Shown here piece after piece: positions 3,370 through 56,509 of a stretch of 64,000 bases of DNA. The notes below the pieces were generated by a model. The model had not been told where the DNA came from, ran no database searches, and saw only the letters and a list, made by a program, of their open reading frames with translations. This stretch comes from an uncultured Kangiella sp. GTDB taxonomy: Bacteria > Pseudomonadota > Gammaproteobacteria > Enterobacterales > Kangiellaceae. The number at the start of each line of letters is the position of its first letter. Position 1 is the stretch's first letter. The DNA is taken from the NCBI GenBank assembly GCA_947498625.1, contig CANMKR010000002.1:372001-436000 (forward strand). The letters run 5' to 3'. A program made the translations under genes and the position numbers.

Positions 3370-6300
3370 TTACTCCTCACAGCCACATGCAAACCAGTCA
3401 TTGAATTTATTAGGATCAATGTTTACTTGACCATCTGCTAGTAATTTTCCAATTTTTTCAGCTGCAAGTCCAGGCCCCTGTTTTTCTACAAAGTACCTTA
3501 AATCACCCATAACTGAACCAGAACCTGTTATTGTTGAAACAAAACCACCTGCCACATACCCTTTTAGAATATTACCAAACGAATTGTTACCTGGTGTCCT
3601 CACTCTGTTATTAACATATGAGCTAATAACTAAATTTGGCGCCATCCTGCCCAAGGTTCTGCTTTTATTATTTACAGCTGTGTCCCAAAATGCGTAATTC
3701 ACATCACTTTGTAAGCCTTCATCACCCATGATTTTGTCTAAAGCAGCCTGTAATGCTAAGCCTTCAATCGCAGCTTTTAGTTCTTCACAACTGCCCATCC
3801 AACCTTGGCTTCTAGCCAAGTGCCTAAAGTTTCTGTAATGTCCTCGAGCATATGTGGTTGCTCCTTCGACAAAATTATCACCTGCATTAACAGGAACCGT
3901 AGTTGCGTAAGTAGGGTTGTTTCCAGCTCTATGGTTAGCAAACCTTATGTCCCAACTATCTAACCCGTAAGGGTCAACATAATTTATAGGGTTAGCCCCA
4001 ACATATCCATAAGTATTAATACCACCATTGAGACCTATCGGATCAGATTGCAAGTATCTTCCTATCTCAGGATCGTAATCCCTAAAGTAGTTGTAGTAGT
4101 TGCCTGTTTCTGCGTCGTTTAGTTGACCTGGGAAACGCAGATCTTGGCTCACATTATCAATCTGTACCGAAAGATTGCCGTATGGGTCATAACTGCCCTG
4201 CCATTGGATATCGCCTGCTGAATCGGTTAAAGCAATTGGAGCATCTAAATGATTGGTATGTACATACATCAGTGCTGAAGCAGCATCTTGATGCCCCATC
4301 AAAGCAATATTGTCTAAACGTCCATGCCCTTTCACTTGAATGAACTTAACGTTAGTCAGTTGAATAGTGGAACTCAATGAACTTAAATCAGCTTGTAAAT
4401 CACGAGTGAAAGTTTGCCATGTGTTATTTCTGGCTTCGTTGCCTAAATAAATCTTAAAGGCATTGCCATTACTTGAAACTGAATCAGTACCTGCCTTAGA
4501 GTAATAAACAATCGTTTTATTCCCTTCATTGGAGGCTATTTTCACCTGCATCAGCATCGCTGATGTTTTTTGTTGCCAGCTCAAGTAATACTGAGTTTTA
4601 TTATTCCAATTTTTATTGTTGGCATTTTTTAAACGGAAACCATTCTTGGTTCCATCCCCTGTCAATACAATCACATTTGAATTTAATTCAGCATCAAATT
4701 CATTGGTCATAGTCGCGCCAGCTGGATTATTATCAAAAATAGTCCAACCGTTTAAAGCGCCATTTTCACCATCAAAATAGACTGTTTTGTTATTTGGATC
4801 TGCGCCACCTTCTACTGAATTAACATTGGCTAAACGCATTCCATCTAAGTAGATATATTCTTGAATGATGTTTCCGCTAGCATCAGTCTGCGCAATTAAC
4901 TGCCCAGCTTGGTCGTAATGATACAGAGTGACTTCACTATCGACTGTTTTCTTAACACGCTGACCTTGAGTATTGTATTGGTAGCTCGCGCTCATGCTGT
5001 TATGAGCAGCCGTAACCATCCGCCCCATCTGGTTGTAACTAAAGGTTAAATCGTCTTTGGTTAAAACATTGCCCACTGCATCATTGGTAAAGTTAGTGGT
5101 TCCAGCTTGAGTCAATCGATGGCTCGCAGGGTCGTATTGATAATTCTCTGTAGCACCATCTTGCGTTTTCGATAAGCGGTTGCCTATTGCATCAAAACTG
5201 TAATCTTGATCGCCATATTGGCCTGTAGCATCCGTTAAACGCGCTAAATTATCGTAACTAAAAGATTGATCAAAACTTGCGTCAAAACTATCAAGAATAC
5301 TGTTGATATTATTTCTTGGCGTATAACCATAAGTTAGGTCGTTAACACCTGTCACTGACTTATTCGTTAAACGATAATCTTGATCAAAGCTCTGAGTTAA
5401 GACTTTACCATTACCATAAGTCAAGCTGTCCATAGGACCAAATGGCAAGTAACTAACGTTCGAAGCAATCGTTTGCGTCACGCCGGAAACCGTTGAAGTC
5501 ACTTCAACCACTTGTCCTAAATTATTACGAACATAGTTAACTAAGCGTCCAGATGGATAAGTCATCTGAGTTAACAAACCCGAAGCATCGTATTGGTAAG
5601 CCGTTACGAAATCCAAATCGTTAACTCGACGAGTTTCTTGTATCAGCTGCCCTTTGCCATCGAATAAATAAGCTGTAGAACCGGATTCGTCATCGATACG
5701 AGTTAAGCGGCCTATGCCTTTGTTATTCGCTACTGTTTCATCGTAAGTGAAAGTTACATTCTCGGACGTATCTGGATAACTAATCGCCGTTACTCGATTA
5801 AGCGCATCGTAGCTATAAGTCGAAGTAATATTACGAGCATCAGTAGCGGTTAATAGATTACCCGCTAAATCATAACTAAAGCTTGAAGTTCCGGTGTCAG
5901 GACTGGTTTGTGAAAGCACTTCACCAAAAGCATTGTAAACATAGCTAGTAGTTTTATTAGTCGCATCGGTAACTGACGTTAAACGATCATGAGAGTCGTA
6001 ACCAAATTCAGTTTCGCCTAAGTCAGGGTCGACGGCTTTAGTTAAACGATCAAGTGCATCGTATTGATTACTGCTGACGTTATTTAAAGCATCAGTAGTA
6101 TCCGTTGGATAACCTTCAGCATCATAATTCACTTTATTGGATTGATTGTTCGCACCTAAAGTCTCTTTTAAGCGACCTAAGTCGTTAAATACTGATGTGG
6201 CAAAACTCTTAATAGTACCGCTAGAGTCTTTAATGTCCGATCGAGTACGGTTGCCCATTAAGTCTAGCGTGTATTCAATGCGATTACCTTGTGCATCGAC

Positions 6301-8583
6301 TATGGCTTTTAAACGCTGCGCTGCATCATACTCGTAACTTAAAGTTACACCGTTTGCCATGGTGACTGTTGTTAACTGTCCGGCATCATCGTAACTATAA
6401 TTAGTAGTGTCGCCATCTGTGGTGATGGATGTTAACCAACCACGAGGATGATAAGTCATGCTGGTCAAAGTGCCGTTCGGATCGGTTACCGATAGAGGCT
6501 TGCCGTGGGCATCGTGCGCTGTGATTAGCGTTTCATGACCTAAGGCATTAATGACCTTAACTAAATTACCGTTGCCTGACGCATCGTATTCGTAAGTCGT
6601 AATATCGCTCACGTCAGTACGTGCGCCATTAACCGTAAGCACTTGCCCTACTGAGTTATAGGTATAAGTAATGGTGCGGGTTTCATTAGTGGCTTTGTCT
6701 TTGACACTACGCGATAACAAGTTACCAGTCGCATCATAGGCATAGGTGGTTAAACGCTGTGGCTCGTCTACTGATAGCGGCAAGTTATAACTGCCATGCC
6801 AAGTGGTCGTGATGATTCTTTGCTCAGCGGTACCAAAAGCTTCAGTGCGTGATTCTTGCAAACCACGACTATTGTATTGATACTGAGTAATGGTGCCATC
6901 ATGGTGCGTGATTTGGCTTAAATACCCTTCGGTATCGTACTCATAATTAGTTTCACCCACCACACAATCAGGGCATGGTTGAGTACTAATTTTTAGTGGC
7001 TTATAAGCTCCGTTAAGCTTCTTAAAATCATACAAGGTTTCCGTAAAATTAGTCGCATCGCGATAATGCTTTACGCTACTCGAAGCCACTTCAGAAATTG
7101 GATTGGTGTAATCAATAGTTACCTTTTCGGCAGAGCCTGAGTGCTCAGACGAAGTCGCGCGACGGAAGCTGTCATAAGTCCAATTAGCGTAATCCGCGCC
7201 AAGCTCATCAGTGATAGAGCTTAAGCCTTGATGATTACCACCTAAATCTTGATAGCCATATGCTTTAAATGGATTGTCGGTTAGATCCGCAGGTGTTTCA
7301 TCTGGGTAAATAACTTTGGTTAACTGTCCTAAATTATCGTACTCGTATAGATATTCGTTGCCTGCTGGGTCAGTTAACTTACTAACGAATTGCTTAATGC
7401 CATAAAACGGTAAATTTAAATTAACGTAATCAATGGTTAAGCTGCGACCGAAGTTATCCGTAATCACCAGTTGATCAGCATTCGGGTAACTATAATCTTG
7501 GAACTGACCATTACGATAAACTTTCTTGATCAGTTTATTATCGCTATTAAAATGATATTCAGTGCCACCAATGGTTCTATGGATAGTTGTGCCCGCGCTT
7601 TCGGTAATAGTGCCTTGCTGGGCTCTAAATGCAGCGCTATCAATAAAGTTCTTACGACTACCTCTTCCATTAGTGAAAGATATAAGTCGAGTTCCACTTT
7701 TCTCTAACTGAGGAACGTTAGGTGTCCAGAAGTTATAGAAATCGGAAGCAATACGATATTCGTTATCGTAAATAATTTGGATATTGTCAGGCAATATTGA
7801 GCGATCAAATTGCACCAACTGTTGACCTGATTCCACTTGCTCAGGTTCTTGGATGTAAGTGCGTGAGAAGTTTAAATTACCGACGCTGGATTGATAATCG
7901 AGTTCTGATTGAATCTTTTGACCCGAAGCACAGCTGATAGGATTGCCAAACTCGTCCATGTTCTTAATCGGACCTTCGCCAGCACAAGCTTGATCAGGTA
8001 CAAAGATACCGCAAGACAAGCCTTGATTGTTTTCGTCAGACTCTCTAACAACGCCACCGGTTTCAAGATTTGGATGAAGGTTTTCAGAGGTATCTGGCCA
8101 GATAATGTCACGAGCAACACATTGATTGGTTGTAGAATCTAAATTCTCAGTACAGTCACAATCCGGCGGCAACTTCTGACAAAATTCGGGAACGCCATCA
8201 CCGTTATTATCAATCTCTATAGGGTATTCAGGAAGCGATTCACATGAAGCAATATAATTAATAGTTACTTGTATCAAACCTGCAGAATAACCGCAAGTAC
8301 TAACATAGCAATATTCAGCACCACTTATTTGAAATTGGGTGCTAGTCATTTCGTAACTATCATAAGAACAATCGTAATAGCGATCGTCATTTAAGACTAC
8401 GCAAAGAGAAAAGTTTAATCGCCAGTATTCTGCCGCTTCAGCTTGTTGAGTTTCTTCAAATTTTGTGCCATCAGTAAAAGTGATAATGGGTTTATCTACA
8501 GGAGCTGGAAGGCTTTCTGATTTAGCTTTAAAAGAAGCTGATGAAAAAATTAATATAAATAAAATGTAATAGATATGCTTCAT
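3370..8583 (-). CDS. Secreted Rhs/YD-repeat polymorphic toxin
   Basis: A 1737-residue Rhs protein. The ATG at 8581-8583 is chosen over one five codons upstream because AGGGA precedes it and it gives a clean signal peptide (MKHIYYILFILIFSSASFKA). The order is: a Cys-rich N-terminal region (about 60-205); a DUF6531-like start of the core (CASGQKIQSELDY, near 218); many YD/RHS repeats (about 340-1250); an inserted beta-rich domain (about 1260-1425) resembling carbohydrate-binding or jelly-roll modules; the core end with [15 protein letters not shown] and DPIGL...DPYGL (to 1541); and a 196-residue variable tip (1542-1737) of unknown activity. The core should form a closed shell that encloses the tip. 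No VgrG, PAAR or other T6SS gene is nearby, and the signal peptide argues for Sec export. The two coupled downstream genes are likely protective partners. Confidence 0.85.
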   Translation of the reverse strand: MKHIYYILFILIFSSASFKAKSESLPAPVDKPIITFTDGTKFEETQQAEAAEYWRLNFSLCVVLNDDRYYDCSYDSYEMTSTQFQISGAEYCYVSTCGYSAGLIQVTINYIASCESLPEYPIEIDNNGDGVPEFCQKLPPDCDCTENLDSTTNQCVARDIIWPDTSENLHPNLETGGVVRESDENNQGLSCGIFVPDQACAGEGPIKNMDEFGNPISCASGQKIQSELDYQSSVGNLNFSRTYIQEPEQVESGQQLVQFDRSILPDNIQIIYDNEYRIASDFYNFWTPNVPQLEKSGTRLISFTNGRGSRKNFIDSAAFRAQQGTITESAGTTIHRTIGGTEYHFNSDNKLIKKVYRNGQFQDYSYPNADQLVITDNFGRSLTIDYVNLNLPFYGIKQFVSKLTDPAGNEYLYEYDNLGQLTKVIYPDETPADLTDNPFKAYGYQDLGGNHQGLSSITDELGADYANWTYDSFRRATSSEHSGSAEKVTIDYTNPISEVASSSVKHYRDATNFTETLYDFKKLNGAYKPLKISTQPCPDCVVGETNYEYDTEGYLSQITHHDGTITQYQYNSRGLQESRTEAFGTAEQRIITTTWHGSYNLPLSVDEPQRLTTYAYDATGNLLSRSVKDKATNETRTITYTYNSVGQVLTVNGARTDVSDITTYEYDASGNGNLVKVINALGHETLITAHDAHGKPLSVTDPNGTLTSMTYHPRGWLTSITTDGDTTNYSYDDAGQLTTVTMANGVTLSYEYDAAQRLKAIVDAQGNRIEYTLDLMGNRTRSDIKDSSGTIKSFATSVFNDLGRLKETLGANNQSNKVNYDAEGYPTDTTDALNNVSSNQYDALDRLTKAVDPDLGETEFGYDSHDRLTSVTDATNKTTSYVYNAFGEVLSQTSPDTGTSSFSYDLAGNLLTATDARNITSTYSYDALNRVTAISYPDTSENVTFTYDETVANNKGIGRLTRIDDESGSTAYLFDGKGQLIQETRRVNDLDFVTAYQYDASGLLTQMTYPSGRLVNYVRNNLGQVVEVTSTVSGVTQTIASNVSYLPFGPMDSLTYGNGKVLTQSFDQDYRLTNKSVTGVNDLTYGYTPRNNINSILDSFDASFDQSFSYDNLARLTDATGQYGDQDYSFDAIGNRLSKTQDGATENYQYDPASHRLTQAGTTNFTNDAVGNVLTKDDLTFSYNQMGRMVTAAHNSMSASYQYNTQGQRVKKTVDSEVTLYHYDQAGQLIAQTDASGNIIQEYIYLDGMRLANVNSVEGGADPNNKTVYFDGENGALNGWTIFDNNPAGATMTNEFDAELNSNVIVLTGDGTKNGFRLKNANNKNWNNKTQYYLSWQQKTSAMLMQVKIASNEGNKTIVYYSKAGTDSVSSNGNAFKIYLGNEARNNTWQTFTRDLQADLSSLSSTIQLTNVKFIQVKGHGRLDNIALMGHQDAASALMYVHTNHLDAPIALTDSAGDIQWQGSYDPYGNLSVQIDNVSQDLRFPGQLNDAETGNYYNYFRDYDPEIGRYLQSDPIGLNGGINTYGYVGANPINYVDPYGLDSWDIRFANHRAGNNPTYATTVPVNAGDNFVEGATTYARGHYRNFRHLARSQGWMGSCEELKAAIEGLALQAALDKIMGDEGLQSDVNYAFWDTAVNNKSRTLGRMAPNLVISSYVNNRVRTPGNNSFGNILKGYVAGGFVSTITGSGSVMGDLRYFVEKQGPGLAAEKIGKLLADGQVNIDPNKFNDWFACGCEE

Positions 8584-8715
8584 GGGTTCCCTATGCAAAC
8601 AATTGAAAGTGACTCACTATTTTAGCTAGACAGTCCTTAAAAAGTGATGCAATTTTAATCAATTGAAATTAGTGAGTAAAGAATAAAAAAGCAGATATGA
8701 TGTGAACCGAATTAG

Positions 8716-32071: not shown

Positions 32072-33283
32072 CTAAAGGTCTAATAAAAGACGTGCAGGAT
32101 CTTCAATAAACTCTTTAATGGTTTTTAAGAAACCAACTGACTCACGACCATCAATAATTCTATGGTCATAAGATAAAGCCACGTTCATCATAGGACGAAT
32201 CACGATTTCGCCGTTAACAACCACTGGACGATCTTCCATACGGTTCATGCCTAAAATAGCAGACTGTGGAGGATTAATAATTGGAGTTGCCATTAATGAG
32301 CCAAACACACCGCCATTAGAGATAGTGAAAGTACCGCCGGTCATATCTTCAACGGTTAACTTGTTATCACGAGCTTTAGCGCCAAACTCACGAATTTTCG
32401 CTTCTATTTCGGCCAAAGACATAGTGTCTGCATCACGTAAAATTGGTACTACCAAACCTCGAGGTGAAGATACTGCAACCCCTACATCATAATAGCCATG
32501 ATAAACAATATCGTCACCGTCAATAGATGCATTAACATCTGGGAAGCGTTTTAGCGCTTCAACAGTAGCTTTAACAAAGAAAGACATGAAACCTAAACGA
32601 GTGCCATGTACTTTTTCAAATTGCTCTTTATAACGCGCACGCAATTCAACCACTTCCTTCATATTAATATCATTGAAAGTCGTTAAGATAGCTGCGCTAT
32701 GTTGAGCTTCTAATAAACGTTCAGCAATACGTTTACGAAGACGCGTCATTGGCACGCGTTTTTCTTCACGCAAGCCTGCTGCCATAGGTGCAGAACCGCT
32801 GATAACAGGAGCTGCTTTTGCGCCACCAGTTTTACCATTTTTAATAAAGGCTTCGACATCCTCTTTAGATAAGCGCTTACCAGAAGCTGGAATTTGCTTA
32901 GGGTCTAAATTGTGCTCTGCCACTAGACGGCGTACCGCTGGAGATAACACGTCCAAATCTGCTGCTGCAACTGGAGCAGCCTCAGCGACTGGGGCTGTTT
33001 CAACTTTCGATTCTTCTTTAGCAGCAGGTGCGGCTGCGGCAGCTTCGCCAGCAACGAAGTTTGCAATCAATTCTTCTTGCAAAACTGTATCGCCTTCTTG
33101 CTTTAGAATTTCAGAGATTGAACCATCTTCTGGCGCAACCACTTCTAAAACCACTTTATCGGTTTCAATATCCACTAAGTTTTGATCGCGCGAAACGGCT
33201 TCGCCTGGTTGTACGTGCCAAGTCGCAATCGTTGCATCGGCAACCGATTCAGGTAACACAGGAACTTTGATTTCAATACCCAT
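32072..33283 (-). CDS. sucB: 2-oxoglutarate dehydrogenase E2 (succinyltransferase)
   Basis: A 403-residue E2 core subunit. It has one lipoyl domain (about 2-77, lipoyl Lys43 in ETDKVVLEV), an Ala/Pro/Glu-rich linker, one E3-binding domain ([16 protein letters not shown]..., about 112-147) and the catalytic domain ending [15 protein letters not shown]. The catalytic His and Asp of HRxxDG are both present, unlike the bkd-type E2 in this window. It follows sucA by 37 bases. No lpd gene for E3 lies in the operon. Confidence 0.96.
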
Positions 33284-50406: not shown

Positions 50407-51492
50407 TTGACGACTAGAACCACTGCTTCTTTCGAGATTAAGTATCATCAGTACCTAGATGCTGATGGTAAAGCGACTCAAGAATTACCAGCTTTTGCCA
50501 AAGATATGGATAAGATGCGCTCACTTTATCGTGACATGGCTTTGTTACGCGCATTCGATGCAAAAGCTTACGCTCTTCAGCGCACCGGTAAAATGGGTAC
50601 CTTTCCAGCTTCATTAGGCCAAGAAGCTATCGGTATTGGTTATGGCGATGCTATGACTGAAAAAGATGTCTTAGTCCCCTACTACCGTTCTACCGGCGCC
50701 TTGTTAAAACATGGCGTTAGCATGAAAGAAATTTTACTTTACTGGGGTGGTAACGAGGACGGTTCTGACTACGCAGTGGCCAAAGAAGATTTTCCAATCT
50801 GCGTTCCAATCGCTAATCAAATCATTCATTGCGCCGGTGTCGCTAAAGCGATGCAAATGCGCGGTGAAAAGCGTGCTGCGGCAACTGAAATTGGTGAAGG
50901 TGGTACCTCTGAAGGTGATTTCTACGAAGGCATCAATGTTGCTGGAATTTGGAATCTAGGTTGTGTCTTTATGGTTAACAATAACCAATGGGCAATCTCA
51001 GTCCCTACTGAAATTCAAACTGCTTGTGAAACTTACGCCCAAAAAGCTATTGCAGCTGGTATTGAAGGTGTACAAGTTGATGGCAACGACATTATCGCTG
51101 TTAAGCAAATGGCCGAATACGCTTTTGAAAAGGCGCGAAATGGTGGCGGCCCTACTCTAATTGAAGCAATTACTTACCGTTTGTGTGATCACACTACAGC
51201 CGATGATGCTTCTCGTTATGATGATCCAGCGGTAAAAGAAGAAGCTTGGAAAAATGAGCCTATGGTTCGTTTACGCAAGTATCTTGAAGCTAACAATGCT
51301 TGGACTGACGCGGATGAAGACTCCATGAAAGCTGAGATTGCAGCCGAAGTTGATGCCGCAGTTAAAGAATACGAAGCTCATCCAAAACCTGGTGCTGAAT
51401 TGATGTTTGACCATCTATATGCAGAACTTCCAGAGATGACTAAACCACAACGTGAAGCAGCGCTTGCGCTTCAAGCAAAAGGAGCGAAATAA
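50407..51492 (+). CDS. bkdA1: Branched-chain 2-oxoacid dehydrogenase E1 alpha
   Basis: A 361-residue TPP enzyme subunit. The TPP motif runs from GEGGTSEGDF to NNNQWAIS; the GEG form and the PYYRSTGALLKHG block are more like BCKDH than the pyruvate enzyme (usually GDG). It decarboxylates 2-oxoacids from valine, leucine and isoleucine. The start is a TTG with AAGGAG 8 bases upstream; no other start fits. Its stop overlaps the next ATG by one base. PdhA of a pyruvate complex is the alternative; the upstream palindrome favours bkd. Confidence 0.85.
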   Translation: MTTRTTASFEIKYHQYLDADGKATQELPAFAKDMDKMRSLYRDMALLRAFDAKAYALQRTGKMGTFPASLGQEAIGIGYGDAMTEKDVLVPYYRSTGALLKHGVSMKEILLYWGGNEDGSDYAVAKEDFPICVPIANQIIHCAGVAKAMQMRGEKRAAATEIGEGGTSEGDFYEGINVAGIWNLGCVFMVNNNQWAISVPTEIQTACETYAQKAIAAGIEGVQVDGNDIIAVKQMAEYAFEKARNGGGPTLIEAITYRLCDHTTADDASRYDDPAVKEEAWKNEPMVRLRKYLEANNAWTDADEDSMKAEIAAEVDAAVKEYEAHPKPGAELMFDHLYAELPEMTKPQREAALALQAKGAK

Positions 51493-52472
51493 TGGCGGCA
51501 ATTACTTTAATTGAAGCAGTTAATGCTGCTCTTGCTTACGAGTTAGAACACGACCAAGATGTGGTTTTATTTGGTGAAGATGTAGGTAAAAATGGCGGTG
51601 TTTTCCGCGCAACCGATGGCTTACAAAAGAAATATGGCGAAGATCGAGTTATTGACTCCCCACTAGCAGAATCTATGATTGCAGGTTTGGCAGTCGGTAT
51701 GGCAGCACAAGGCTTAAAGCCAGTTGCAGAGATGCAATTTATGGGCTTTATTTTCCCTGCAGTGGATCAAATTTTCGGTCAAGCGGCTCGTATGCGCCAC
51801 CGTACCCGTGGCCGTTTGACTATGCCAATGGTTATTCGTGCACCATTTGGTGGCGGTATCCATGCCCCTGAGCATCACTCAGAATCAACAGAAGCTTTAT
51901 TTGCGCATATTCCTGGTTTGAAAGTGGTTATCCCTTCAAATCCAAGTCGCGCTTATGGTCTTATGTTAGCAGCCATTCGTGATCCAGATCCGGTAATATT
52001 CTTAGAGCCAAAGCGTGTTTATCGAATTGTTAAGCATGAAGTTGAAGACAATGGCGAAGAATATCCATTAGAAGCATGTTTTGTTGACCGCGAAGGCTCT
52101 GACATCACATTGATTTCTTGGGGCGCAATGATGCATGAAACCAATATTGCGGCTGAAAAACTAGCTGCTGAAGGTATTGATGCAGAAGTGATTGATGTTG
52201 CTACTGTTAGCCCCATCGATATGGATACCATTTTAGAATCAGTTCGTAAGACCGGGCGCGTTTGTATCGTACAAGAAGCACCTAAATCTGGCGCCGTAGG
52301 TTCAGAAATTGCAGCCGAGATTGCAGAACATGCCATTATGAGTTTATTAGCTCCGATTGGTCGTGTTTCAGGTTATGATACGGTGATGCCTTATTACAAA
52401 CTTGAAAAGCAATATATGCCAACGGTTGATCGCATCTTAGATGAAGCGCGTAAAATCATGGAGTACAAATGA
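51492..52472 (+). CDS. bkdA2: Branched-chain 2-oxoacid dehydrogenase E1 beta
   Basis: A 326-residue subunit that completes the E1 heterotetramer. It shows LFGEDVGKNGGVFRATDGL, DSPLAESMIAGLAVGMA (Glu near the TPP thiazole), QAARMRHRTRG, and a transketolase C-terminal domain (VSPIDMDTI). The ATG overlaps the bkdA1 stop (TAATG) and its own end overlaps bkdB by 4 bases, so the three subunits are made together. Confidence 0.9.
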   Translation: MAAITLIEAVNAALAYELEHDQDVVLFGEDVGKNGGVFRATDGLQKKYGEDRVIDSPLAESMIAGLAVGMAAQGLKPVAEMQFMGFIFPAVDQIFGQAARMRHRTRGRLTMPMVIRAPFGGGIHAPEHHSESTEALFAHIPGLKVVIPSNPSRAYGLMLAAIRDPDPVIFLEPKRVYRIVKHEVEDNGEEYPLEACFVDREGSDITLISWGAMMHETNIAAEKLAAEGIDAEVIDVATVSPIDMDTILESVRKTGRVCIVQEAPKSGAVGSEIAAEIAEHAIMSLLAPIGRVSGYDTVMPYYKLEKQYMPTVDRILDEARKIMEYK

Positions 52473-54193
52473 GACAGTTTAATTTACCCGACTTAGGTGA
52501 AGGCTTACCCGATGCGGAAGTAGTCCGCTGGTTAGTTGCTGAAGGTGATGAAGTTGCTGTTGATCAACCAATGGTTGAGATGGAAACTGCCAAAGCCGTC
52601 GTTGAAGTTCCTTCTCCATACGCAGGCCGCATTGCAAAATTACACGGTCAACCTGGTGATGTCATCGATGTAGGTGCTGTTTTAGTATCTTTTGGCGAGC
52701 TAGGTGAAGAGCCTGTAGCAGAAGAAGTTCCTGCTGATAAGCCTAAAAATGAACCTGTATCCCCAGCAACACCTGCAGTGGCTGACAATGCAGTTTCAGG
52801 CGATTCAGAAGTCTTCAAATTACCTGATTTAGGCGAAGGTTTGCCGGATGCGGAGGTGGTTCGCTGGTTAGTGAACGAAGGCGATACCGTTGCTGTAGAC
52901 CAACCGATGGTTGAAATGGAAACGGCTAAAGCAGTAGTTGAAGTCCCCTCTCCAGTTGCAGGTGTTGTCAGTAAATTACATGGCCAGGCTGGCGATGTAA
53001 TCGAAGTTGGTGCGCCATTAGTCGAGTTTGGTGGGACTGTAGGTTCATCCACTGCTTCTACTCCTGCTAAAGAAGACAAACCTGAAGAGCGTGAAGACAG
53101 CGGTACAGTTGTAGGTGCTGTAGAAGTTGGCAACACTGTAGTTGCAGAAACTTCCAGCGCGGTAGTTAAAGCGTTAGCTCGTAAGTTAAAAGTGGATTTG
53201 ACTCAAGTTAAAGGCACTGGCGCTAATGGCTCTATTACGCAGAAAGATGTTAAAGCAGCCGCTAAAAATGGTACAGCAAAATCTAACGCCTCTGCCCCAG
53301 TAGTAGAAACCAATACAAGTTACATTGAAACTAGCAACCCGCTTGCTTATAAAGCCTCGCCAGCAGTTCGTGCATTAGCACGCAAACTTGGCGTTGATTT
53401 AGCGACTTGTGCAACTTCGGGTCGTAAAGGCTCTATAACTCGTGAAGATGTTGAAATGGCAACTAAGGGCGTTACCGCTCCTGCTGCACAAACTCAACTT
53501 CTTTCGCAAGCTGATTTAAATGCCCCGCTAGCTAAAGGTTATCCTACCCTAGTCAATGGACAAGCTGAAACTGTACGCGGAGTACGCCGTGCTATGGCAA
53601 TGGGTATGTCCCATGCCCACGCAACGATTGTACCGACCACTCTAGTAGAAGACGTCGATATTACGGCATGGCCGAAAGGTACTGATTCACTAGCACGTTA
53701 TGTGCGAGCTTTGGTTGTTGCAGCTAAACAAGTTCCAGCTTTAAATGCCTGGTTTGATGGCGAAAAATACGAGCGTACCATGCACGCTTCTGTGAACGTT
53801 GGGATCGCAGTTGACTCTGAAGCAGGCTTATATGTTCCAGTAGTCCACAAAGCTGATGAGATGGGCATGGCCGGCGTTAGAGCTCGCGTTCAAGATTTAC
53901 GTCAAAAAATCGAAAGCAAAACCCTAAAGCAAGAAGATCAACAAGATGCCACCATTACCCTATCAAACTTCGGCTCTATTGCAGGCCGTTATGGCACACC
54001 TGTGGTATCTCCGCCGCAAGTAGCCATCATGGGCACTGGACGCTTCCGCAAAGAGCTTAAGTTAACTGAAAATGGTATTCAAAATGCAAAAATGCTACCG
54101 CTTTCGTTAACTTTTGATCACCGCGCCTGTACTGGCGGTGAAGCAGCAAGGTTCCTAGCGGCTGTTTTAGAAGATTTGCAAAAAGCTCACTAA
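52469..54193 (+). CDS. bkdB: Branched-chain 2-oxoacid dehydrogenase E2, two lipoyl and two E3-binding domains
   Basis: A 574-residue E2. Two nearly identical lipoyl domains (about 1-77 and 113-190; lipoyl Lys42 and Lys154 in METAKAVVEV) point to internal duplication. Two E3-binding-type domains follow (about 228-263, AVVKALARKLKVDL; and 296-331, AVRALARKLGVDL), where one is normal. The catalytic domain (about 360-574) ends FDHRACTGGEAARFL: His551 is present, but the Asp of HRxxDG is Thr555. SucB in this window keeps DG. I recall a TGGEA variant in some proteobacterial E2s, so it may be a clade trait, with catalysis less dependent on the Asp. No lpd gene follows. Confidence 0.88.
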   Translation: MRQFNLPDLGEGLPDAEVVRWLVAEGDEVAVDQPMVEMETAKAVVEVPSPYAGRIAKLHGQPGDVIDVGAVLVSFGELGEEPVAEEVPADKPKNEPVSPATPAVADNAVSGDSEVFKLPDLGEGLPDAEVVRWLVNEGDTVAVDQPMVEMETAKAVVEVPSPVAGVVSKLHGQAGDVIEVGAPLVEFGGTVGSSTASTPAKEDKPEEREDSGTVVGAVEVGNTVVAETSSAVVKALARKLKVDLTQVKGTGANGSITQKDVKAAAKNGTAKSNASAPVVETNTSYIETSNPLAYKASPAVRALARKLGVDLATCATSGRKGSITREDVEMATKGVTAPAAQTQLLSQADLNAPLAKGYPTLVNGQAETVRGVRRAMAMGMSHAHATIVPTTLVEDVDITAWPKGTDSLARYVRALVVAAKQVPALNAWFDGEKYERTMHASVNVGIAVDSEAGLYVPVVHKADEMGMAGVRARVQDLRQKIESKTLKQEDQQDATITLSNFGSIAGRYGTPVVSPPQVAIMGTGRFRKELKLTENGIQNAKMLPLSLTFDHRACTGGEAARFLAAVLEDLQKAH

Positions 54194-54244: not shown

Positions 54245-54325
54245 ATGTTTTGAAACAATTGTTTTCTAGTGCATTGTTTATAGCTTTGTTATTCTCATAT
54301 AGTTTTTTAATTAATGGGAATAATT

Positions 54326-56509
54326 ATGAATCTAAAACTCATTTCGTTGGTATCAGCTATAACGCTGGCTTTAACTGCTTGTGATAACGCAGAACAATCA
54401 CAAGCTCCTGCAAAACCTGAAGTTAAAGTAGTTCAGGAAGTTAAACAGGATAAGAAACCTGGAGCTACAGCCCTAACTCAAGAAAATACTTCTAATGAGC
54501 AAGATCCTTTCATCTGGTTAGAAGAAGTTGAAGGCGAAAAAGCGCTTGCTTGGGTAGAAGAGAATAATAAAAAGTCATTAGGCTATTTAAAATCCAAGCC
54601 TCTTTATAATGAACTGTATGAGAAAAACTTAAAAGTTTATGACTCCGACGAGCGTATTCCTTATGTTAGTCAAATGGGTGATTATTTTTATAATTTTTGG
54701 CGTGATGCTAATAATCAAAAAGGTTTATGGCGCCGCACAACGTTAGCTGAATATAAGAAAGACAAGCCTAAGTGGGAAACCGTTTTAGATTTAGATAAGT
54801 TAGCCGAGGCTGAAGGCGAAAATTGGGTCTACAAAGGCTCCAACTGTTTATATCCAGAATATAAACGCTGCTTATTAAACTTATCTCGCGGTGGTGCTGA
54901 TGCCACTGTAGTACGCGAGTTTGATATTCCTAGCAAATCCTTTGTAAAAGATGGTTTTTCTTTGCCTGAAGCCAAATCGAATATAAGCTGGATCGATATG
55001 GATACCCTCTATGTTGGAACAGACTTTGGCGAAGGTAGTATGACGGACTCGGGTTATTCCCGAATCGTTAAAGAATGGAAGCGTGGCGAACCACTTGCAA
55101 AAGCCAAAACTATTTTTGAAGGTGAAAAATCTGACGTTTGGGTGGCTGCTTTTGTAACTCACGATAAAGATAAGTCTTATAAGATGATTTATCAGGGCTT
55201 AACTTTTTATACTTCAGATGTGTTTTTCGTTACTGATTCTGGATTAAAAAAATTCAATCGACCTAAAGACAGTTCATTGAGTGGAATTACTAATGGACAG
55301 TTACTTTTAGAGCTAAAGTCTGATTGGACTGTTGGTGGTAAAACTTATCCGCAGGCAGCGTTATTATCGATTGATATCAAAGATTATATTGATGGAAAAA
55401 CCACTTTCACAGAAGTAATAGTTCCTGATGCAAACACTTCATTATCAGGGGTATCTACTACTAAAGATTATATATTGGTTAATACATTAAAAGACGTCGC
55501 TAGTGAGCTTTACCGTTATCAGTATAAAGATGGTAACTGGTCTCGCGAAATGATTGATATGCCGGCACTGGGCTCTATTTCGGTGACAGGCGTTAGTGAT
55601 CAGCACAATAATTTCTTTGTGAATTATAACAACCACCTAACTCCAAGTAGCCTCTATTATTTCGACAGCCAAACTAGCAAAGCATCAGTACTAAAAAGCT
55701 TGCCCGCTTTTTTTGACGCTACTCCTTATAAAGTTGAGCAAAAATTTGCTACCGCCAAAGATGGTACCAAAATACCTTACTTCTTAATTATGAGAAAAGA
55801 CCTAGAGTTCAATGGTAAGAACCCTACTTTACTTTATGGCTATGGCGGCTTTGAAATATCCTTACGCCCTTCTTATTCATCAACAGTTGGAATTGATTGG
55901 TTAGATCAAGGCGGCGTCTATGCTGTTGCCAACATTCGCGGCGGCGGCGAATATGGTCCAAGATGGCATCAAGCGGCTTTAAAGAAAAACCGTCATATCG
56001 CCTTTACAGACTTTATTACTGTTGGTGAAGATTTAGTGGCAAGTAAAATCACTTCGCCTAAGCATTTAGGCATTCGTGGTGGTTCAAATGGTGGTTTATT
56101 AGTTGGCACCGTTGCTACAATGAGACCAGATCTTTTCAATGCGGTTGTGTGCCAAGTGCCTTTACTTGATATGAAGCGCTTTAATCAATTGCTAGCGGGC
56201 GCTAGCTGGATGGGTGAATATGGTAATCCTGATAACGAAGATGAGTGGGAATACATAAAAACTTACTCGCCTTATCACAACGTTGATAAAGACACCGATT
56301 ACCCAAAGATTTTCTTTACGACTTCAACTCGTGATGATCGAGTACATCCAGGTCATGCCCGGAAAATGGTTGCCTTGATGCAGTCACAAGGACACGATGT
56401 TTTGTATTATGAAAACACAGAAGGTGGTCACGGCGGCGCATCTAACAACAAGCAAGCTGCTAGCCTAAATGCATTGGTATATACATACCTCGCTGATCAA
56501 CTTAAGTAA
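54326..56509 (+). CDS. Prolyl oligopeptidase (S9A) lipoprotein
   Basis: A 727-residue serine peptidase that cuts short peptides after proline. The ATG at 54326 is chosen because GGGA precedes it and the product then has a clean lipoprotein signal (lipobox L-T-A-C at residue 19). An acidic/Lys-rich tether follows. The N-terminal beta-propeller (about 110-450) is followed by the alpha/beta hydrolase domain with Ser in GGSNGG (near 586), Asp in STRDDRVHPGHA (near 670) and His in EGGHGGA (near 700). It is anchored to the membrane, facing the periplasm or outside. Confidence 0.93.
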   Translation: MNLKLISLVSAITLALTACDNAEQSQAPAKPEVKVVQEVKQDKKPGATALTQENTSNEQDPFIWLEEVEGEKALAWVEENNKKSLGYLKSKPLYNELYEKNLKVYDSDERIPYVSQMGDYFYNFWRDANNQKGLWRRTTLAEYKKDKPKWETVLDLDKLAEAEGENWVYKGSNCLYPEYKRCLLNLSRGGADATVVREFDIPSKSFVKDGFSLPEAKSNISWIDMDTLYVGTDFGEGSMTDSGYSRIVKEWKRGEPLAKAKTIFEGEKSDVWVAAFVTHDKDKSYKMIYQGLTFYTSDVFFVTDSGLKKFNRPKDSSLSGITNGQLLLELKSDWTVGGKTYPQAALLSIDIKDYIDGKTTFTEVIVPDANTSLSGVSTTKDYILVNTLKDVASELYRYQYKDGNWSREMIDMPALGSISVTGVSDQHNNFFVNYNNHLTPSSLYYFDSQTSKASVLKSLPAFFDATPYKVEQKFATAKDGTKIPYFLIMRKDLEFNGKNPTLLYGYGGFEISLRPSYSSTVGIDWLDQGGVYAVANIRGGGEYGPRWHQAALKKNRHIAFTDFITVGEDLVASKITSPKHLGIRGGSNGGLLVGTVATMRPDLFNAVVCQVPLLDMKRFNQLLAGASWMGEYGNPDNEDEWEYIKTYSPYHNVDKDTDYPKIFFTTSTRDDRVHPGHARKMVALMQSQGHDVLYYENTEGGHGGASNNKQAASLNALVYTYLADQLK

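Follow-up and report, generated by a model that had tools for sequence, protein, structure and literature searches.

Two peripheral subunit-binding domains in a threonine-type E2 acyltransferase of Kangiella and its relatives

The E2 acyltransferase, its lipoyl domains and its peripheral subunit-binding domain (PSBD) are textbook knowledge, and domain databases very likely already list architectures with more than one PSBD. In the pyruvate dehydrogenase (PDH) of B. stearothermophilus a heterotetrameric E1 is combined with an E2 carrying one lipoyl domain and one PSBD, and with a heterotetrameric E1 the E1 and E3 components exclude each other on the same PSBD. The accessible text of two papers describes E2s in which one PSBD follows one to three lipoyl domains (PMC8421416, PMC6270654), and no description of E2s with two or more PSBDs was found in the open-access papers searched. 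A stretch of 64,000 nucleotides from an uncultured Kangiella sp. (GCA_947498625.1, contig CANMKR010000002.1), here called the window, carries an E2 gene for which both the lipoyl domain and the PSBD were predicted to be doubled and the catalytic Asp to be replaced by Thr. The locus raises the question whether both PSBDs are genuine, where the second one came from, and what it may do for the complex. The features of the locus are collected in Table 1.

Table 1. Features of the E1alpha-E1beta-E2 locus, in positions of the window and residues of the E2.
Feature	Position	Strand	Basis
E1 alpha subunit gene	50407-51492	+	NCBIfam TIGR03181, above cut-off
E1 beta subunit gene	51492-52472	+	Top NCBIfam models are PDH E1 beta, below their cut-offs
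E2 acyltransferase gene, 574 aa (two lipoyl, two PSBD, one catalytic domain)	52469-54193	+	ORF and Pfam
Lipoyl domain 1, residues 1-76, Lys42	52469-52696	+	Pfam and model
Lipoyl domain 2, residues 113-188, Lys154	52805-53032	+	Pfam and model
Conserved linker segment around GTVVG, residues 211-227	53099-53149	+	Conservation
PSBD1, residues 230-266, extra copy; Lys234 in place of the usual helix-I Arg	53156-53266	+	
PSBD2, residues 294-333, retains Pro and Arg301	53348-53467	+	
2-oxoacid dehydrogenase acyltransferase (catalytic/core) domain, residues 365-574	53561-54190	+	
AGRY, residues 505-508, goes with Thr in the subfamily	53981-53992	+	
Active-site motif HRACTGG, residues 551-557, Thr555 at the Asp position	54119-54139	+	

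Pfam detects in the protein two stretches of Biotin_lipoyl (PF00364), two of E3_binding (PF02817) and one of 2-oxoacid_dh (PF00198), the last with 189.4 bits against a cut-off of 23, which makes the protein an E2 by profile. The E3_binding total on the protein is 85.1 bits (cut-off 23.7), and a PF02817 search of the genome DNA scores the two PSBDs separately at 54.8 and 40.9 bits; with two matches above the cut-off the usual trait of one PSBD per chain, as given in the accessible text of PMC8421416, does not apply. The original prediction of two nearly identical lipoyl domains and two PSBD-like segments is upheld by this domain search, the PSBD bounds shifting from residues 228-263 and 296-331 to about 230-266 and 294-333. 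The lipoyl domains share 81.6% identity, each with its predicted lipoylation lysine (Lys42, Lys154) within ETAKA, while the two PSBDs share 54%.

The E2 gene is the third of an E1alpha-E1beta-E2 operon, its start overlapping the end of the E1beta gene, and no E3 gene is present within the operon. The next gene after E2 (54314-56509, forward strand), read by eye, encodes a prolyl-oligopeptidase-like lipoprotein and not an E3. At 80 related loci E1alpha and E1beta were found inside the examined flanks in 78 cases and Lpd in none. Two PF02852 proteins are encoded in the genome; judged from their redox-active sequences, one reads as a lipoamide dehydrogenase adjoining aceF and the other as a glutathione reductase. 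With a single Lpd-like gene in the genome E3 is therefore probably common to several complexes, and one Lpd would probably serve the pyruvate complex, the 2-oxoglutarate complex and the third one encoded here. A separate pyruvate dehydrogenase, with a 900-aa aceE candidate, aceF and lpd, is found at another locus, and an E1alpha-E1beta-E2 operon beside such a separate enzyme is a mark of branched-chain complexes. At the other end of the window, by eye and both on the reverse strand, 3370-8598 encodes a 1742-aa RHS/YD-repeat protein and 1969-2550 a short downstream ORF whose start resembles an RHS-core end.

Domain content, modelled folds, constraint, operon and ancestry together make it rather probable that the protein is the active E2 core of a complex with an alpha2-beta2 E1, most likely a branched-chain keto-acid dehydrogenase (BCKDH), in which the second PSBD is an extra docking site giving a higher E1/E3 load; the substrate, the E1/E3 competition, the higher occupancy and the role of Thr555 are the parts that we infer. 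Each chain would have two lipoyl domains as swinging arms and two domains for docking. A single PSBD in a complex with an alpha2-beta2 E1 would hold E1 or E3 and not both, and for PDHc the accessible text of PMC8421416 has E1 or E3 as possible partners of the PSBD. With a second PSBD each chain could then take two partners, which would relieve the competition and raise the E1/E3 load of the core, and the copies would go back to an ancient duplication and have stayed separate since. As to the substrate, a branched-chain keto-acid dehydrogenase would deliver the isovaleryl-CoA from which Kangiella makes its iso-fatty acids. Iso-fatty acids predominate in the lipids of K. koreensis (iso-C15:0 57.6%), and in the accessible part of their paper the authors deduce a starter enzyme selective for branched precursors (PMC3035244); the complex probably carries a heavy flux in Kangiella, assuming that these fatty acids depend on the E1alpha-E1beta-E2 operon. 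The branched-chain substrate stays an inference, because TIGR03181, against which the E1alpha scores 443.9 bits (cut-off 411.35), names it a pyruvate dehydrogenase subunit.

Matches at E 1e-60 or better were present in 38 of the 40 genomes of the GTDB family, the two others being 86% and 75% complete, and all 30 loci examined from those 38, the window's own included, encode two lipoyl domains and two PSBDs. In one genome of the genus (L016) the last 560 residues of the E2 are the same as in K. spongicola (L063). In a sample of the class 27 of 369 genomes matched at the same threshold, and the matches examined have a single PSBD except in the window's own genome; L047, from this sample, is a single-PSBD protein, as counted in the tree that follows. 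In a tree of catalytic domains (128 distinct rows, 36 multi-PSBD and 92 single) all 36 fall on one side of a branch with support 98/92, found in 99% of 200 bootstrap trees, and the T-type E2s (those with Thr at the Asp position) outside this clade have one PSBD in 92 of 92 rows. Judged by this tree multiple PSBDs have a single origin within the Thr subfamily, and the arrangement is not the standard one for such E2s; had it been standard, this would have spoken against the original prediction. The T-type E2s of Xanthomonas, Stenotrophomonas, Rhodanobacter and Marinicella share the operon, the HR..TGGEA and AGRY motifs and the GTVVG linker with the Kangiella E2 at about 40-45% identity, but have one PSBD and usually one lipoyl domain.

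The multi-PSBD clade is made up of the Kangiella/Aliikangiella/Pleionea family and of alphaproteobacterial genomes (MAGs). The alphaproteobacterial Thr/Ser-type E2s (L072, L073, L143-L146, L148) have tandem PSBDs and E1alpha and/or E1beta upstream within the examined flanks, and those of them placed in the tree and scored against the PSBD profiles, all but the truncated L148, belong to the same clade. They differ from the Kangiella E2 by a middle PSBD in four cases, with three PSBDs in L072 (Pfam 45.8, 43.5 and 32.1 bits), L143, L144 and L148 and at least two in L073, L145 and L146, and by three lipoyl domains in one. This last is L146 (genome G410), an 802-aa ORF.

When the alphaproteobacterial copies are scored with profiles of the Kangiella family, the first copy is closer to PSBD1 in 5 of 5 cases (L073 being without a first-type copy) and the last closer to PSBD2 in 6 of 6; by this positional sorting PSBD1 and PSBD2 had therefore diverged before the Kangiella/alphaproteobacterial split and were both retained. 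The two copies of one protein share a mean identity of 47.5%, while each copy is 76-78% identical across species, and the helix-I position is Lys in 31 of 32 PSBD1 and Arg in 32 of 32 PSBD2. Position, divergence and the Lys/Arg difference would all fit a division of labour with one PSBD for E1 and the other for E3, as the original prediction had suggested, which would be the single-chain equivalent of what eukaryotes distribute over E2 and a separate E3-binding protein. However, divergence in sequence does not imply distinct partners, and the Lys is limited to the Kangiella family, with Arg kept in those alphaproteobacterial first copies that were read, so that such a division is possible but should be regarded with some doubt. 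Mean net charges of the PSBDs are similar (3.2, 2.9 and 3.4), a count which is incomplete, comes from a set mixed with D-type tandems (Asp at the position of Thr555) and was set aside. As to which copy is the ancestral one, the signals conflict: PSBD2 outscored PSBD1 in 27 of 29 proteins against a profile of single PSBDs, the single PSBDs themselves split 41 to 51 between the PSBD1 and PSBD2 profiles, and MAFFT placed them on PSBD2 in one alignment (A1) and on PSBD1 in another (A4).

A profile built from PSBD1 alone finds solved PSBDs (best 2eq8, E 9e-10), and its nearest solved relatives are the PSBDs of PDH E2s, some of them complexed with E3 or E1. The AF2 model built for the tandem region from 12 sequences (121 residues, mean pLDDT 68.7) gives pLDDT blocks of about 77-80 for PSBD1 and 69-84 for PSBD2, with the linker below 50. 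Its PSBD1 (model residues 10-48) fits 2eq8_C with Z 6.5 and rmsd 0.6 over 39 residues, and its PSBD2 (75-116) fits 1w85_I with Z 7.3 and rmsd 0.8 over 42. The Foldseek E-values for this model are weak (best 0.017), which is to be expected when domains of about 40 residues lie inside a model of 121. The full-length model has two helices in each PSBD, in pLDDT blocks of about 79-94. The PSBD fold is shared with the PDH E2 of B. stearothermophilus, whose PSBD is solved with E1 (1w85) and with E3 (1ebd); in the alignment that enzyme differs by its canonical Asp.

Just upstream of PSBD1 lies the conserved linker segment, which is gap-free, 85% identical and, with a pN/pS of 0.15, constrained like the lipoyl domains while the rest of the linker drifts. 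Of 131 distinct T/S-type E2s 130 have a GTVVG-like segment, the exception being GAVVG in L144, and of 14 D-type E2s none has it; from its conservation it looks like a candidate docking motif. It could form part of a site by which PSBD1, having lost the usual Pro and Arg and yet kept its conservation, would dock something besides E1 and E3, be it another enzyme or a neighbouring chain. This is unlikely, since the segment is also kept in the single-PSBD relatives and the closest solved structures to PSBD1 are those PDH domains, complexes with E3 or E1 among them.

Among 30 sequences from the GTDB family both PSBDs are free of gaps, and pN/pS, taken as simple uncorrected proportions with synonymous sites close to saturation, is 0.24 for PSBD1, 0.29 for PSBD2, 0.16 for the catalytic domain and 0.64-0.79 for the four linkers. 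Both PSBDs are genuine domains that purifying selection maintains, in contrast to the drifting linkers, and the doubt that one of the segments might not be folded as a PSBD is answered by the match of both to solved PSBDs in the models and by the constraint on both. The number of PSBDs does differ among lineages, as it might if one of them were a neutral remnant of a domain duplication, but gap-free copies with a pN/pS far below that of the linkers, both retained since before the Kangiella/alphaproteobacterial split, make this very unlikely.

The active site was read correctly in the original prediction: the motif runs H551-R-A-C-T555-G-G and so departs from the HRxxDG of E2s, while SucB in the same window (32072-33283, reverse strand) has HRIIDG. 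Across the 145 distinct E2s from all loci examined, the Asp position is occupied by Thr in 130, Ser in 1 and Asp in 14. Among the 62 distinct E2s found via protein similarity it is Thr in 61 and Ser in 1; the set of 80 loci found by pattern gives Thr in 79 of 79 distinct E2s, which may be by construction because the search patterns included TGGEA. AGR[YF] accompanies Thr in nearly all T-type E2s, and Ser499, Asp550, His551 and Arg552 are invariant in both alignments (A1, A4). On these sequences Thr555 marks a subfamily and is not the oddity of a single protein. In E. coli E2p an Asp near the catalytic His is expected to hydrogen-bond to it (accessible text of PMC8421416), and on the simplest reading Thr555 probably stands in for this Asp through a hydrogen bond of its hydroxyl. 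That the loss of an Asp which is usual there (14 of 14 D-type E2s) would leave a catalytically dead E2, in the role of a structural or E3BP-like subunit, is most improbable, given that this is the sole E2 of the operon, that Thr is subfamily-wide (Ser once) with Ser499, His551 and the D550/R552 pair retained, that the catalytic domain is strongly constrained, and that A. vinelandii E2p has Asn at this position, so that Asp is not absolute (same text, PMC8421416).

The pairing of Thr with the doubled PSBD, implied in the original prediction, did not survive a survey of their co-occurrence. T-type E2s have one PSBD in 96 cases, two in 31 and three in 3, and D-type E2s, in a set enriched for tandems by the search used, have one in 4, two in 7 and three in 3. 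Thr555 and the tandem PSBD as one linked trait can be ruled out, most T-type E2s being single-PSBD.

Tandem PSBDs are likewise not exclusive to the Kangiella family, an idea overturned by alphaproteobacterial and gammaproteobacterial cases. A search of 289 alphaproteobacterial genomes with the tandem alignment (threshold 1e-12), which is biased toward tandems, matched 11; in 10 of these the E2 has two or three PSBDs, in the remaining one (G733) a single PSBD. Because of this bias all PF02817 matches were enumerated in smaller samples. ORFs with at least two matches above the cut-off occurred in 2 of the 70 genomes sampled from the phylum, one being the window's own, and in 7 of 67 genomes (8 ORFs) of an alphaproteobacterial sample centred on a known multi-PSBD case. 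The claim that tandem E3-binding domains are rare has to be qualified accordingly. Two gammaproteobacterial families (f152 and f123) also have multi-PSBD E2s, in genomes chosen for many matches. The multi-PSBD E2s read outside the T-type centre genome are HRxxDG enzymes, and those of Alpha- and Gammaproteobacteria (for example L178, L186, L188 and L192) resemble the Kangiella E2 in having two or three PSBDs beside an alpha2-beta2 E1, and differ in their canonical Asp, in the missing GTVVG linker (14 D-type E2s) and in their separate branch of the tree. With tandems in HRxxDG E2s as well, the arrangement therefore arose more than once; a wider tree has 13 changes of PSBD number, at least 4 of them forced by starred branches, but it is a quick tree with many open forks and no exact number is claimed. 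At five loci (L184, L185, L186, L194, L196) the neighbouring E1beta itself bears a lipoyl domain.

The surroundings of every PF02817 ORF of the 67-genome sample were compared. Multi-PSBD loci, the three-PSBD locus of the centre genome included, lie beside E1alpha/E1beta genes in 8 of 8 cases, against 61 of 112 single-PSBD loci; the other 114 loci comprise 61 with an alpha2-beta2 E1, 47 with a homodimeric E1 (SucA/AceE-like), 1 with both, 3 with no E1 seen and 2 without an E2 ORF passing both profiles. Multiple PSBDs are modestly associated with the alpha2-beta2 E1, a one-sided Fisher test giving p 0.013 with and 0.022 without the chosen centre genome; the test left out 6 unclear loci and ignores kinship. 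Of 12 further multi-PSBD loci 9 have E1alpha/beta, 2 are at contig ends and 1 (L191) has no E1 gene nearby. A second PSBD is not required for such a complex, because 61 alpha2-beta2 loci have a single one.

A bolder and decidedly speculative reading, doubtful at present, is that multi-PSBD E2s are an overlooked, repeatedly evolved design for complexes with a heterotetrameric E1, with E1- and E3-specialised copies in the Kangiella/alphaproteobacterial clade. If the copies are specialised, the E1:E3 stoichiometry would be encoded in a single chain and would not depend on competition or on a separate E3-binding protein. Natural multi-PSBD E2s, long retained and gained more than once, supply ready parts for complexes of fixed E1:E3 ratio, and with them it becomes testable whether competition or dedicated sites determine the ratio of partners.
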